Of a stretch of 15,812 nucleotides of DNA, positions 1,075-15,700 are shown piece by piece. This DNA is from a bacterium (GTDB lineage Bacteria > AUK180). The position numbers and the translations under genes are program-made. The stretch is taken from NCBI GenBank assembly GCA_030622125.1, contig JAUXGM010000041.1:1-15812 (forward strand), read 5' to 3'. The notes under the pieces were generated by a model. It had not been told where the DNA came from. It saw only the letters and a program-made list of their open reading frames with translations, and did not search any database. Within the stretch, counting starts at the first letter, position 1; each line of letters opens with the position of its first letter.

Positions 1075-2790
1075 TTACAAAGCAGGCAAAAAAATACTAA
1101 ATGTCGTGCCCTTTCCCAAGTTACTTTCTATCTCAATAAAACCGTTATGTCTTTGAACAATGCTGTTTATAATAGAAAGTCCAAGCCCGGTGCCCTTCCC
1201 CTTTTCCTTTGTAGTAAAAAACGGTTCAAAGATTTTTTTCTGTGTTCCCTTACTTATTCCTGAACCGGTATCCGAAATTGAAGTAACAACATAATCCAAA
1301 TTATTTCTTTTGGCATTTTTTGTTGCAATAATTATTTTTCCTTGTCCGTTTATTGCATCACGCGCATTAACAACAATATTTACGATTATTTGCTCAATAT
1401 TACCTTCTGTGCCTTTAATTTGTTTAAGATCCCCTGAAAGTTCCAATTTAACATCGATTAGTTTCCCTACTATATGTCTAAGCATACCAAAATTTCTTTT
1501 TATAATTTCATTAATGTTTAAGTCATTCTCTGTAATATGTTCTTTTCTACTGAACATTAGTAATTGCTGAATTAAACCTATACCACTTTCGGATGCCTTA
1601 TAAATATCACTTATCGATTCGTAGTAACGATCATCTTTTTTGATCTTTAAAAGTAAGTATTCGGAATGTCCTTTGATGATCGTTAAAATGTTATTAAAAT
1701 CATGTGTAATTCCACCTGTTAATTCGCCAATTGTTGCTAATTTTTTTGTCCAGAAAACCTGGTCCTCAATTCTTCTTATCGTTTCTTCTGCTGTTTTCAG
1801 TCTGGATATGTCTGTTATAACTGCAAGTATAAGATCTTGATTATAAATTGCTATTTTTTTCAGCCTTACAATACCGGGAAATTCTTCTTGATTCTTTCTC
1901 TTAAGCATACATTCATAAGATATTGTTTTTTCTTTTACCGACTGGATTTTTTCTAATGATATCTTATTTTTACATTCTTTTGCACAAAGAATGTCTATTG
2001 AAATGTTTAAAAAATTAGGTTCATTGTATCCGAAAATTTTTGAAGCCGTCCTATTTGCTTCTATGATCTTACCATTATAATTAAATACAAACATAGCATC
2101 AGGGGTAGAATCCTTAATGATCTGGAGACGATTTCTACTTTCAATTAGTATTTTATCCTTTATAGAAATCTCCTTTGCCATAAAATTTACCTTCTTCGCA
2201 ATCGTATCAATATCACTTTGCTTAAACAAAGGAAGTTCTAAATTATAATTTCCAAGGGCGATCTCCTCTATCCCGCCGATTAAAATATTAATTTGTTTTT
2301 TTAAAAAAAACTGCAGCAAAAAGTGAATACAAATAATAAGTAGAAAAATAATGGTTAAAATTGTTAAAATGATTGAAGAAATAATTTTATTCTGTTTTTG
2401 AATTATACCTTGTTTGGTAAAATAGATTGTAATTGTACCGATTTTTATCCCATTATAGTAAATTTCTTTTTTTCGTGTAAATATATTTTTTCCATCTTCG
2501 TAATTTTTTTCAAAGGAGATTCGTGTTGCATTTGATATATCTATCCTTACAATTTCCTCAATATGAAGATACGACTGCACTATTTTTTCAATGGTCTCAT
2601 TTTCCATATTCCAGAGAGGTAATGTTAATACGGAAGTGATATTATCAATATCTTTTTCTGCCTTTATATAGAGTTGTTTTTTTGCTTTATTTGTAGAAAC
2701 AATATACTGCAAAGAACCAAATATCAACTCTGCAACTACGATTATTATTATCAAATAAATTGTAAGGTCACCGGAAATAGTTCTTTTCAT
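1075..2790 (-). CDS. Membrane sensor histidine kinase (HAMP-PAS-HisKA-HATPase)
   Basis: This predicted inner-membrane kinase autophosphorylates on histidine in response to an extracytoplasmic signal. A reading frame opens at 2829, but I place the start at 2790 (571 aa). That ATG follows the upstream stop by one base and has GGAG four bases before it. Numbered from there: TM1 about 11-31; a short external domain about 32-136 with an LWNMENETI motif; TM2 about 137-163; a HAMP-like linker; a PAS domain about 224-335; HisKA with the phospho-acceptor H363 in GGITHDFNN; and an ATPase domain with N-box (N475), DTGSG (D507), FEPFF and GTGLGL boxes. The catalytic motifs look intact. It is translationally coupled to the solute-binding lipoprotein upstream, which probably presents the ligand. 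No response regulator lies in the window, so the output is unknown. Confidence 0.93.
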   Translation of the reverse strand: MKRTISGDLTIYLIIIIVVAELIFGSLQYIVSTNKAKKQLYIKAEKDIDNITSVLTLPLWNMENETIEKIVQSYLHIEEIVRIDISNATRISFEKNYEDGKNIFTRKKEIYYNGIKIGTITIYFTKQGIIQKQNKIISSIILTILTIIFLLIICIHFLLQFFLKKQINILIGGIEEIALGNYNLELPLFKQSDIDTIAKKVNFMAKEISIKDKILIESRNRLQIIKDSTPDAMFVFNYNGKIIEANRTASKIFGYNEPNFLNISIDILCAKECKNKISLEKIQSVKEKTISYECMLKRKNQEEFPGIVRLKKIAIYNQDLILAVITDISRLKTAEETIRRIEDQVFWTKKLATIGELTGGITHDFNNILTIIKGHSEYLLLKIKKDDRYYESISDIYKASESGIGLIQQLLMFSRKEHITENDLNINEIIKRNFGMLRHIVGKLIDVKLELSGDLKQIKGTEGNIEQIIVNIVVNARDAINGQGKIIIATKNAKRNNLDYVVTSISDTGSGISKGTQKKIFEPFFTTKEKGKGTGLGLSIINSIVQRHNGFIEIESNLGKGTTFSIFLPAL

Positions 2791-7597: not shown

Positions 7598-8827
7598 ATG
7601 ACAAAAGAAATATATATTGAAAATAATAAAGAATTTTCCGTAAAGGTGGTGAATACTGCAATCGATTCAATTAGGGAAAAGGAAATTAAAAAAACAGGAT
7701 TAAGGATTTACAAGGACGGACTTATCGGTATTTCGGGAACATTGGGTGAAGGAAAGATCAAAGAACTTGAAAAAAGATCAAGGGAAAACTTAAAATACAA
7801 ACTTTCCTATCCTTATGAAATAAGTAAAAATAACAAAACTGAAATTGACAAAACCAATATATTGAAAATGGATAATGAAAGACTTTTGGAAGAAATGGAA
7901 ATAATTTTAGAGTATTTAAGAGAAGATCATTCAGATTTTATTTTTTCAGGGGGAGGGAGATTGATCTCTTATGAAAATTCTTTAAAAAATGATAACGGTT
8001 TGAATTTAATTTACAGGGACAAATTACTTGCATTATCATTTCTTATAAAAGATAAAAATTCTGCAAATCTCATTGATGGCTATACCGGATATGGTGGAAG
8101 AAAATACAATAGAAAAAAGACCTTTAATCTTATAGATGGATTTTGCAGTGCTTTTAAAAATAAGGTTGAAATAAAAAAAGATAAATACTATCCCATTATT
8201 TTTTATCAAGCAGATGACATGATCTTTCAAAAACTTGCAGCAGAGCTTCATGGAATGAAATATGGAACCAAAAGTTCACTTTTATACGGTAAGTTGGGAC
8301 AAAAGATATTTTCAGATGATTTCACATTGTATCAAACATTAAATCCTAATGAAAGCTATGGTGGATTTTTCGATATGGAGGGAATTGTAAATAAAAATTA
8401 CCGTTATACCTTTATAGAAAATGGAGTTTTCAGATCACCGTATACGGATAAAAAGACAGCAAAACTTTTCAATTTATCTTTAACCGGTAGTTCCGGTGGT
8501 GGATATGACAGCGTTCCGCAGCTTTCCTATTTAGGCTTTCAATCAAAACCGTCAAAAAAGACCTTAAAGGAACTTTTAGGTGGCAAAAAGGCAATATTTA
8601 TTATTATGGCATCCGGTGGAGATTTTACTCCGGAAGGTAATTTCTCCTATCCTGTGCAGCTTTCCTTTTTATACGATGGCGGGAAATTTATCGGCAGATT
8701 ACCAGAACTTTCAATATCATCGAATCTTTTTGAAATGTTCGGAAAAGCATACATAGGCACTGCAAAAGATATTTTTTTCCCACTTTCCATTGAAAAACCG
8801 ATTGTGATTGATATGAAGGTGAAATAA
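7598..8827 (+). CDS. pmbA: TldE/PmbA, non-catalytic subunit of the TldD/TldE protease
   Basis: TldE (PmbA) pairs with TldD to form the closed peptide-processing chamber; it has the same fold but no metal site. The 409-aa product has no HExxxH, as expected. It shows C-terminal family features: FDMEGIVNKNYRYTFIENG (258-276), then GVFRSPYTDKKTAKLF (276-291), and a GGDFTPEGNFSYPV-type segment close to the C-terminus. It is slightly shorter than the roughly 450-residue E. coli protein. AGGAG (7587-7591) overlaps the tldD stop and is six bases before the ATG, so translation is coupled. I see no truncation or frameshift. Confidence 0.92.
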   Translation: MTKEIYIENNKEFSVKVVNTAIDSIREKEIKKTGLRIYKDGLIGISGTLGEGKIKELEKRSRENLKYKLSYPYEISKNNKTEIDKTNILKMDNERLLEEMEIILEYLREDHSDFIFSGGGRLISYENSLKNDNGLNLIYRDKLLALSFLIKDKNSANLIDGYTGYGGRKYNRKKTFNLIDGFCSAFKNKVEIKKDKYYPIIFYQADDMIFQKLAAELHGMKYGTKSSLLYGKLGQKIFSDDFTLYQTLNPNESYGGFFDMEGIVNKNYRYTFIENGVFRSPYTDKKTAKLFNLSLTGSSGGGYDSVPQLSYLGFQSKPSKKTLKELLGGKKAIFIIMASGGDFTPEGNFSYPVQLSFLYDGGKFIGRLPELSISSNLFEMFGKAYIGTAKDIFFPLSIEKPIVIDMKVK

Positions 8828-8967: not shown

Positions 8968-9018
8968 TTGCTATCTTCGTATCTTCGTATATACGAAGAT
9001 ACGACCGAAACATTATTT
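8968..9018. repeat. 51-bp palindromic repeat, left copy flanking arsR
   Basis: It matches 9327-9377 with one difference (A at 9010, G at 9369). The core 8977-9004 is a perfect 28-bp palindrome with half-site TCGTATCTTCGTAT. The right edge overlaps the stop codon region of the ArsR gene. It could be an operator or a mobile palindromic element. Confidence 0.85.
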
Positions 9019-9306
9019 TTTATTCCTTTCCATACATTTCATTGCATCTGTTATTAATTCTAATACTTCTTTCTTTTTTAAACTATATATAACCTGATTT
9101 TGCTTAGTCCTAAATGAAACAATGTCAAGATCACTTAATAATCGTAAGTGTTTTGAAATAGTGCTTCCTTCCTTATTGGTAAGTTCTGCTAATGTAGTAA
9201 CATTTCGATCTTGTTTTTTTAATATTTTTATTATCATAAATCTTGTAGAATTACTTAGCAATTTGAATAACTTTAATGTTCTTTTTTCCGATTCGGTAAT
9301 TTTCAT
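9013..9306 (-). CDS. ArsR-family winged-helix transcription regulator
   Basis: This 97-aa protein is a typical small dimeric ArsR/SmtB-type repressor. It opens with FKLLSNSTRFMIIKILKK (14-31), followed by TTLAELTNKEG (37-47), a recognition helix STISKHLRLLSDLDIV (48-63) and a wing (64-75). The metal-sensing ELCVCDL motif of helix 3 is absent and the only cysteine is C91. It is therefore unlikely to be a classic arsenic or cadmium sensor and may respond to another signal. AGGAG lies about nine bases before the ATG. The gene sits 65 bp downstream of the glycosidase on the same strand and could be co-transcribed. Near-identical palindromic repeats lie immediately on both sides; the upstream copy occupies the promoter position and may be its operator, which is inference. 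Confidence 0.9.
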   Translation of the reverse strand: MKITESEKRTLKLFKLLSNSTRFMIIKILKKQDRNVTTLAELTNKEGSTISKHLRLLSDLDIVSFRTKQNQVIYSLKKKEVLELITDAMKCMERNKK

Positions 9307-9326
9307 TTTTATCTCCTATTTTTTTT

Positions 9327-9377
9327 TTGCTATCTTCGTATCTTCGTATATACGAAGATACGACCGAAGCATTATTT
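9327..9377. repeat. 51-bp palindromic repeat, right copy, between glycosidase and arsR
   Basis: It is the second copy of the 8968-9018 repeat. The perfect palindrome spans 9336-9363. It lies 21-71 bp upstream of the arsR start and overlaps the end of the GH18 gene. This is the natural place for an autoregulatory operator. Confidence 0.85.
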
Positions 9378-11045
9378 AATAATAGCAATTTTTCCAATTT
9401 TTCTCTCACCGTTATCATTTGAAATGTAATAAATATAGATACCTAAAGCAACATCTCTTCCGTCTTTATTTTTGAGGTTCCAGAAATAATCAATACTATC
9501 CACTTTTTCTTTGATGACAAGTTTACCTGTAATAGTGTATATTCTTATTTTACTGTCTTTTGTTAGATTTGAAAATGTAACTTTATTTACTTCCATATTC
9601 GGTTTAAATGGATTTGGATATACTACAATATTTTCCAGATTTTCTGCAAAATTCTTTGTTCCGGTAAAATTTGCATCAGTAATATCACTACTTAAATTTG
9701 TATAAGGTATATTAGTTGGATTGAATGTATAATTAGCTTTGCTTGGTGTTATAATGTATGTTCCGCCTTCTCCTAAATTATTAAATGAGTAATAACCAGT
9801 GGTAGATGTAGTAAGGGTTGCTGTTGAATCACCGGACAAGGTAACGGTAACGCCTGATATTGAAGTTGAAGCTGTATTTGCTATTGTACCACTTATTGAC
9901 CATTGACTACAACAGAATTTTTCCCGGATTTTATTCCAGAGTTCTGTATTTGTACCGTCATAACCGATAGCCCACATCCCGATTCCCTGAAATCCCGTGG
10001 AAATAACCATATCATACTTCATTCCCAGAGAATCCTGATCATCGAACCATGTTTGATAGGTTGTACTTCCGTTTATATAGTAATACCAGGGGGTATCCGA
10101 GTCAAGATCCCATCTTATTCCATAACTTGCCGCTTCACTTTTACATATTGAATATGTCTTTGCAGAACCGTTTTCTTGAGCAGCGGCAGGAACGGAATCA
10201 TCCGCCGTAGCCCAATTGTAGCCATAGTAGGGGACGCCCAGGATAAATTTATCCTTATAAATTCCGTAGTTTATATAATCGTTTATGGTCCAACGGACAC
10301 AGTATTGTCCCCAGGTGGAACTTGGATTTAATGGTGCGACGGGTCCTGCCTCCGAGCTTCCGCTCCAATGATAATCATAAGCCATTATAAAGATACCGTC
10401 GGAGTTCAAGGCAAGTTGATCGTAATCATAAGCACCGTTCCAATCAACAGCAGGTCCGCAGATCGTTAATTCATAATCGGCATTGGCTGATTTTAAGGCA
10501 TTGTTCAAATCCGTTATGAACTGAACAAAATTTGCCTTTTGAGATACGGGTACGCTTTCAAAATCAATATTTACACCGTCGGCACCGGTTGTTTGCACCT
10601 CATTTACAAGATTATTTATTAATGTTGTTCGTGCCGTAATGCTTCCTAAAAAGGTATCATTGTTCGACGAACCGAAATTCGTAGCAACCAAAATTACCTT
10701 TACACTCTTATTATGTGCCGTTGTCAAAAGTGTGTCATCGGGCCAGCCGTGCTTATCAGTAAAATTACCCGTTGCAGGATCAAATTCCAATGAGAAAAAA
10801 GCAATATGTGTAAGTAGATCCCATTGAACATTTGAATAACTTCCCCAATATGGATAAAAACCGAAAACTGTGCGATCTACACAAGGGGTTGAACGGGTCG
10901 CTTTAAATAATACCGTTTGATCCTCAATATGCTTTACATTTCTATATTTTTCCAATTCCCTTTGATGAATGGAGACACGATCGTCTGAATAAACTATTAT
11001 TGAAAATAAACAAAAAACTATTGTAATTGTTTTTCTCATATCCAT
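9372..11045 (-). CDS. Secreted GH18 glycosidase with Ig-like and C-terminal sorting domains
   Basis: This 557-aa protein is predicted to be exported and to hydrolyse beta-1,4-linked N-acetylglucosamine polymers such as chitin or peptidoglycan. A signal peptide covers about 1-20. The GH18 barrel runs from about 57 to 378. The catalytic motif is DGVNIDFE (156-163) with E163 as acid/base; the N159 variant is usual in SleL/YaaH-like members. MAYDYH follows at 221-226 and GIGMWAIGYD at 354-363. A carboxypeptidase-regulatory-like beta domain follows (about 384-463). The end (about 470-557) begins VVYPNPFKP and closes GKIAIIK, typical of FlgD/type IX sorting domains. Its promoter ends five bases before the first ATG, so the mRNA is probably leaderless; a second ATG two codons on is possible. 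The substrate is not determinable from sequence. Confidence 0.92.
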   Translation of the reverse strand: MDMRKTITIVFCLFSIIVYSDDRVSIHQRELEKYRNVKHIEDQTVLFKATRSTPCVDRTVFGFYPYWGSYSNVQWDLLTHIAFFSLEFDPATGNFTDKHGWPDDTLLTTAHNKSVKVILVATNFGSSNNDTFLGSITARTTLINNLVNEVQTTGADGVNIDFESVPVSQKANFVQFITDLNNALKSANADYELTICGPAVDWNGAYDYDQLALNSDGIFIMAYDYHWSGSSEAGPVAPLNPSSTWGQYCVRWTINDYINYGIYKDKFILGVPYYGYNWATADDSVPAAAQENGSAKTYSICKSEAASYGIRWDLDSDTPWYYYINGSTTYQTWFDDQDSLGMKYDMVISTGFQGIGMWAIGYDGTNTELWNKIREKFCCSQWSISGTIANTASTSISGVTVTLSGDSTATLTTSTTGYYSFNNLGEGGTYIITPSKANYTFNPTNIPYTNLSSDITDANFTGTKNFAENLENIVVYPNPFKPNMEVNKVTFSNLTKDSKIRIYTITGKLVIKEKVDSIDYFWNLKNKDGRDVALGIYIYYISNDNGERKIGKIAIIK

Positions 11046-15496: not shown

Positions 15497-15677
15497 GTCA
15501 TTCAGAGCCCCTTGTGGGCGTGGAATCTATCCCTCCGCGTCATTATGAGGATTTTGAAAAAATCCGTAATAATCTCATTTTTTTATTGTGTTATTCCGGC
15601 GAAAGCCGGAATCCGTCCCTGTCTGTCATTCTGAGGACCTTGCCGATTATTCAAATTCCGATTTATCGGAAAGAATC
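15497..15677 (+). repeat. Three successive GTCATT palindromic elements
   Basis: GTCATT occurs at 15497, 15539 and 15625. Each is followed by GAG or GAGG, a small stem and a final AATC. Stems include GGATTTT/AAAATCC in the second and TTCCGAT (15656-15662) with ATCGGAA (15665-15671) in the third. They share the plan of 3683-3725 and 12503-12544. Confidence 0.55.
15593..15612. repeat. GAAA-tetraloop hairpin repeat
   Basis: A perfect 8-bp stem, ATTCCGGC with GCCGGAAT, closes a GAAA loop. Hairpins of this form are widespread dispersed repeats in bacterial genomes. No T-tract follows, so it is probably not a terminator. Confidence 0.7.
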
Positions 15678-15700
15678 CAGGATTTTCTTCCTATCGAACC

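Follow-up and report, generated by a model that had tools for sequence, protein, structure and literature searches.

The window, the whole 15,812-nucleotide stretch of DNA that was analyzed, contains a small arsR-family gene behind a GH18 gene, with a TldD/PmbA-like gene converging on it from the other side (Table 1). The arsR gene is bracketed by two direct repeats of 51 bp that are 98% identical (1 difference), lie 359 bp apart and include one perfect 28-bp palindrome each (TCGTATCTTCGTATATACGAAGATACGA; arms of 14, no spacer). The upstream repeat ends 20 bp ahead of the arsR ATG and also overlaps the last codons of the GH18 gene, and the downstream repeat overlaps the arsR stop codon. No chance match of the repeats was obtained in 200 dinucleotide shuffles of the window with 3 mismatches allowed. 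These results confirm the description in the first-pass annotation of near-identical palindromic repeats abutting both ends of the gene. Its remark that the downstream copy adjoins no promoter also holds; the nearest gene on that side is the convergent TldD-like gene. At the right end of the window (15500-15700), reading frames with translations such as VIPAKAGI resemble a common intergenic repeat.

Table 1. Features of the arsR locus in the window, and decaying arsR copies in G000 and G001
Feature	Position	Strand	Basis or remark
arsR-family gene, 97 aa (97 codons)	9013..9306	-	Pfam, NCBIfam and profile comparison
Downstream 51-bp repeat	8968..9018	.	Repeat detection; overlaps arsR stop codon
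Upstream 51-bp repeat	9327..9377	.	Repeat detection; overlaps 3′ end of GH18 gene
Perfect 28-bp palindrome, downstream copy	8977..9004	.	26-bp 12-2-12 core at 8978-9003
Perfect 28-bp palindrome, upstream copy	9336..9363	.	26-bp core at 9337-9362
Extent of unit common to G004:C17	8972..9367	-	blastn, 76.8%; homology bounded by both palindromes
GH18 gene	9372..11045	-	Immediately upstream of the unit; context, outside the unit
TldD/PmbA-like gene	7598..8827	+	Converges on the unit; context only
Decaying arsR copy, G000:C52 (L078)	2066-2355		
Decaying arsR copy, G001:C84 (L141)			
Decaying arsR copy, G001:C64 (L081)			
Decaying arsR copy, G001:C47 (L039)			

The arsR product matches Pfam HTH_5 (35.7 bits; cut-off 22) and NCBIfam HTH_metalloreg (64 bits; cut-off 55) and, used as a profile, is homologous to the solved structures of SmtB, CzrA and HlyU. 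The protein belongs to the ArsR/SmtB family and possesses the winged helix-turn-helix domain of the ArsR type. Inspection of the ArsR alignment by eye revealed neither CxC in α3 nor DxH in the last helix. The known metal-sensing motifs (α3N cysteines or α5 D-x-H) are not obligatory for ArsR/SmtB members that do not sense metals. The closest relatives are encoded in bins of uncultured bacteria (JAGLGN010000024.1, JAGGYO010000139.1 and JAGLWT010000158.1). Genome contigs were searched with a profile of a four-sequence ArsR alignment, which reached close relatives only. In the ArsR tree, the outgroup rows G006_C167, G009 and G017 were read on the wrong strand, and the deeper branches are not interpreted.

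The association of arsR with palindromes is real and reaches beyond the window. Among the genomes compared, G000, G001, G002 and G004 are from one family, and G005 and G006 are from the same class. The genes for the ArsR proteins of G004:C17 (74% identical) and G001:C66 (55%) are likewise bracketed by T1 palindromes, the window type, and the T1 pairs bracketing arsR in G000, G001 and G004 are 354-373 bp apart. A second palindrome (T2; CGTATTT-NNNN-AAATACG) lies on both sides of arsR in G001:C118, C71 and C39. T3 palindromes lie on both sides of the gene in G003:C6 and once, after the stop codon, in G002:C171. The stop codon is followed by a T4 palindrome in G004:C26 and G001:C64 and by arrays of the word TTCGCATA (T7) in G002:C327 and in the frameshifted copy of G000:C52; two further palindrome types accompany the genes of G002:C335 and G000:C3. 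The palindromes and words comprise at least seven types, roughly one per ArsR subtype. The flanking copies are direct in the window, G004:C17 and G001:C66, and inverted in G001:C118/C71.

A palindrome or word lies just 3′ of the stop codon in all 15 related arsR genes. With the stricter requirement of arms of 10 or more, no more than 1 mismatch and a distance within 110 bp, a palindrome follows the stop in 13 and precedes the start in 7 of these genes, which include orthologues and duplicates and are not independent. Among 16 other ArsR homologues used as controls, palindromes were found on one side in 2 and on the other in 3 ("left" and "right" not being upstream and downstream in every case), and random windows of the same loci gave 5.7%. 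Homology between the window and G004:C17 is restricted to 8972-9367 (77%), running from palindrome to palindrome; outside this segment, they share nothing but palindromes. Of the 26-bp cores, the upstream pair is identical and the downstream one is altered at a single position in G004, while synonymous sites in the two arsR genes are saturated (pS 0.74, pN 0.16). Purifying selection on arsR is evident from a dN/dS of about 0.2 in the two measurable pairs, both T2. In the leader of a T2 unit (L082 2830-2940), the upstream palindrome lies within a 33-codon open reading frame (MVKKVRKTKC...). A conserved GH18/TldD neighborhood was considered as the reason for the presence of arsR and discarded, given that no arsR follows a TldD relative in G002, where, however, the contig ends. 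That the bracketing is an assembly artefact of a metagenome bin, a repeat collapsed or duplicated, is hardly conceivable: the assembly is fragmented (192 contigs) and has a palindrome at the end of contig C100, but the same bracketing occurs with differing sequence in three separately assembled genomes.

ArsR/SmtB repressors bind 12-2-12 inverted repeats (PMC8790569). The 26-bp core of the palindrome has this geometry on both sides of the window arsR, and an ArsR dimer most likely binds it. Conservation of the palindrome despite saturated synonymous sites has the look of a binding site of a conserved protein. The upstream copy, which the first-pass annotation placed as an operator, is predicted to be one from its 12-2-12 core and its conservation, but a promoter scan gave no promoter-like match at this copy or between the GH18 gene and arsR. 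For this reason, transcription of arsR in the window probably enters from the GH18 side and would be damped by the gene's own product.

The same features could belong to an ordinary operator and regulon, with ArsR acting at its own and other promoters, the downstream copy serving as a second operator (for a loop or roadblock) and nothing being mobile. The conserved palindrome, its 12-2-12 size and the subtype-specific palindromes agree with such an arrangement, as do some single copies in G002, G005 and G006 that lie between a stop codon and the promoter-like sequence of the next gene. We nevertheless regard it as unlikely, because the palindrome is commoner after the stop than before the start, no promoter-like match falls at either window copy, the downstream copy is situated between two convergent genes, and the unit of gene and palindromes is multiplied and missing from sister sites, as described below. 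It is very improbable that the palindromes function as RNA, in terminators or 3′-end stabilizing hairpins for arsR and the GH18 gene. The transcribed strand does fold to a 12-bp stem (-20.8 kcal/mol, z -5.1) and copies sit right after stop codons; however, there is no T tract, symmetric changes in the arms fit binding by a DNA-bound dimer equally well, many copies precede a gene and the copies are few. Intrinsic terminators were dismissed as a candidate after a terminator scan did not pick the palindromes.

The genome-wide count suggested in the first-pass annotation identified six palindromes with the 26-bp core CGTATnTTCGTATATACGAAnATACG in the genome that contains the window (2.08 Mb, 192 contigs): two in the window and one each on contigs C172, C144, C136 and C100. 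In the C144 and C136 copies, the variable base is altered on both arms together (C/G to G/C and T/A), preserving the palindrome; in the C100 copy, at a contig end, it is not symmetric. Among 98 genomes, the core with at most 3 mismatches occurs only in G000-G002 and G004-G006, and is absent from G003 and 91 more distant genomes. T1 with an ATAT centre is commonest in G000, G001 and G004, the genomes with a T1 arsR, and single in G002. The T2 palindrome has 17 copies in G001, which contains at least three T2 arsR genes, versus 0-3 in six other genomes, and the doubled word TTCGCATA is confined to the two genomes that have the matching arsR subtype, G000 and G002. Copy number thus tracks the matching arsR for T2 and T7. 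Since it does so, and since the palindrome is far better conserved than synonymous sites, the copies elsewhere do not reject the operator idea. The fit is poorer for T3, with ten related copies in G005 without a close arsR, and some T1 and T3 copies occur in genomes (G005 and G006) that have no close arsR. Two of the ten G005 copies, 32-bp T3-like palindromes at G005:C155 (1050 and 2229; L145), bracket a gene for a WG-repeat lipoprotein-like protein, with no arsR.

Each main palindrome type has 6-17 copies per genome, and solitary palindromes are dispersed over intergenic sites, in some cases immediately behind a stop codon. The suggestion of a mobile palindrome inserted after genes is to that extent borne out, and is only partly right. 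Larger dispersed repeats enclose some of the T1 and T7 copies and are possible carriers. Arrays of TTCGCATA are found inside such repeats in G000:C67, C76, C91, C145 and C191 (L179, L182, L187, L190 and L191), several of which have flanks in common, for example GGGAATTGTGTAAATTTCCCGTATGCACATA and CCAATCAAATAAAAAATGAGATT. Several sites in G001 and G004 (L034 8500-9250; L035 3200-3750; L042 3350-3900 and 5100-5800; L044 3400-4000) share a fragment in which a T1 palindrome is joined to the 3′ end of a gene whose product has a cysteine-rich C-terminus; the fragment lies between GGGGACGG...GTTGCA and TACGGGATAAATTGC sequences. The gene is possibly Cas4/RecB-like.

The arsR-palindrome unit as a whole is also present in several copies. 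G001:C118 and C71 have in common a 483-bp unit that is 97.5% identical, in unrelated surroundings, and partial copies are found in G001:C84, which is internally deleted, and at C77 and C146, which end inside copies. Three G001 copies have the common right edge TATAGGTTTATTCTG (one base different in C84) and then diverge; the left edge is less sure, since the promoter-like stretch with which it coincides is a dispersed sequence in its own right. At the G001 sites C71, C118 and C39, the flanking DNA is 92-97% identical to that of G004, and the three gene-flanked G004 counterparts contain neither arsR nor palindrome. The corresponding intervals are 156, 22 and 391 bp in G004 versus 0.8, 2.2 and 1.6 kb in G001. 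The G001-only segments at C118 and C39 (2.2 and 1.6 kb) carry other genes too, and simple deletion in G004 is possible at these two sites. The gene preceding the G004:C17 unit occurs in G001:C92 without the unit. Decaying arsR copies (Table 1), which variously contain a frameshift, an internal deletion, an altered 3′ end or a 5′ truncation, are each still followed by their own palindrome or word array. Near-identical units at unrelated G001 sites, decayed copies and empty G004 sites together point to a unit that is moving or turning over fast. Examination of the unit edges revealed neither a transposase nor a target-site duplication or terminal inverted repeat, and there was no plasmid DNA match. 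A viral origin or vehicle was rejected: viral contigs contain neither an exact T1, T2 or T3 core nor a relative of the window ArsR, the only trace being two Listeria phage records with an ArsR match of 34%. The cassette proposed in the first-pass annotation is supported by a layout that recurs without other shared DNA, is duplicated within a genome and is absent from the orthologous sites in a close species. The expectation that precise excision would leave one copy behind has to be rejected, as all three comparable G004 sites lack a palindrome. That annotation had also set the cassette against the operator; the two are not alternatives, and both probably hold.

Palindrome-bounded bacterial genes are known mainly with transposases (RAYTs). 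The part of the REPtron literature represented by PMC2817692 describes a RAYT gene flanked by two REPs, inverted in RAYTs, and usually more than 100 REPs per genome; the layout is also described in PMC8266576. The arsR unit resembles a REPtron in that palindromes of the gene's own type stand on either side of it, single copies lie dispersed in intergenic DNA, protein subtype matches palindrome subtype, and gene copies are few and palindromes more numerous. It differs in the defining property, the gene encoding an ArsR repressor and not a Y1 (HUH) transposase. In addition, its palindromes are near-perfect, are inverted around the gene in only one pair of loci (G001:C118/C71) and are low-copy against the usual REP number, and inspection of the T1 flanks by eye showed no constant GTAG-like head. 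REP-like palindromes could instead have been mobilized by a RAYT/Y1 transposase, with arsR a passenger caught between two copies. All seven genomes contain Y1_Tnp genes (3-13 each), several copies adjoin other dispersed repeats and single copies are intergenic. This route is nonetheless improbable: a Y1 transposase beside the palindromes was sought and rejected, none of the listed Y1_Tnp genes being at a T1, T2 or T7 copy (one in G001:C64 is ~1.7 kb from a T4 arsR), no constant head was visible by eye beside the T1 cores, and a passenger leaves unexplained why each ArsR subtype has its own palindrome.

Other known systems match in part. As in an ArsR/SmtB autorepressor with a 12-2-12 operator, an ArsR family protein is encoded beside a 26-bp palindrome, but in the unit the constant position of the palindrome is after the stop, a perfect copy stands on each side of the gene, the unit occurs in multiple copies, and the window protein has no visible known metal-binding motif. 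Mobile insertion cassettes, in which a passenger lies between IS-type ends without a transposase, likewise have a repeat-bounded, non-transposase gene that has apparently moved; the ends of the arsR unit, in contrast, are palindromes and not IS terminal repeats, and neither a parent IS nor a target-site duplication was seen. Integron gene cassettes (gene plus attC) also place a palindromic element directly after the stop of a small gene, whereas the window contains no array, no attC consensus boxes were seen by eye and the empty sites have no palindrome.

The reading we favor, with a probability of roughly 60%, is that of an autoregulated repressor-operator unit, REPtron-like in layout and dispersal, in which ArsR takes the place of the transposase, and which forms a lineage-restricted family. 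Each unit would combine a repressor gene of the ArsR family with a matching palindrome after its stop codon, often with another before the start. The upstream palindrome, lying in the arsR leader, would give autorepression; an ArsR dimer on it and on the palindrome behind the stop is predicted to repress both transcription of the gene and read-through. The whole unit would turn over and be copied into new positions between genes, with single palindromes dispersed through the genome, and, in the manner of a small mobile element, would be acquired, lost and multiplied. A further, speculative and rather doubtful step is that an ArsR dimer on both palindromes pairs the gene ends and contributes to copying or protection of the unit, and that the repressor-operator pairs diversify (at least seven palindrome types) as pairs of transposase and ends do.

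A search of the full text of open-licence papers found no description of such an arsR-palindrome unit. If the favored reading is true, this would be a family with a plain repressor as its resident gene, in which regulator and operator can spread as a unit. It would also provide a natural set of co-diverging repressor-site pairs for studies of DNA recognition and would offer one explanation for the low-copy intergenic palindromes of poorly known lineages.
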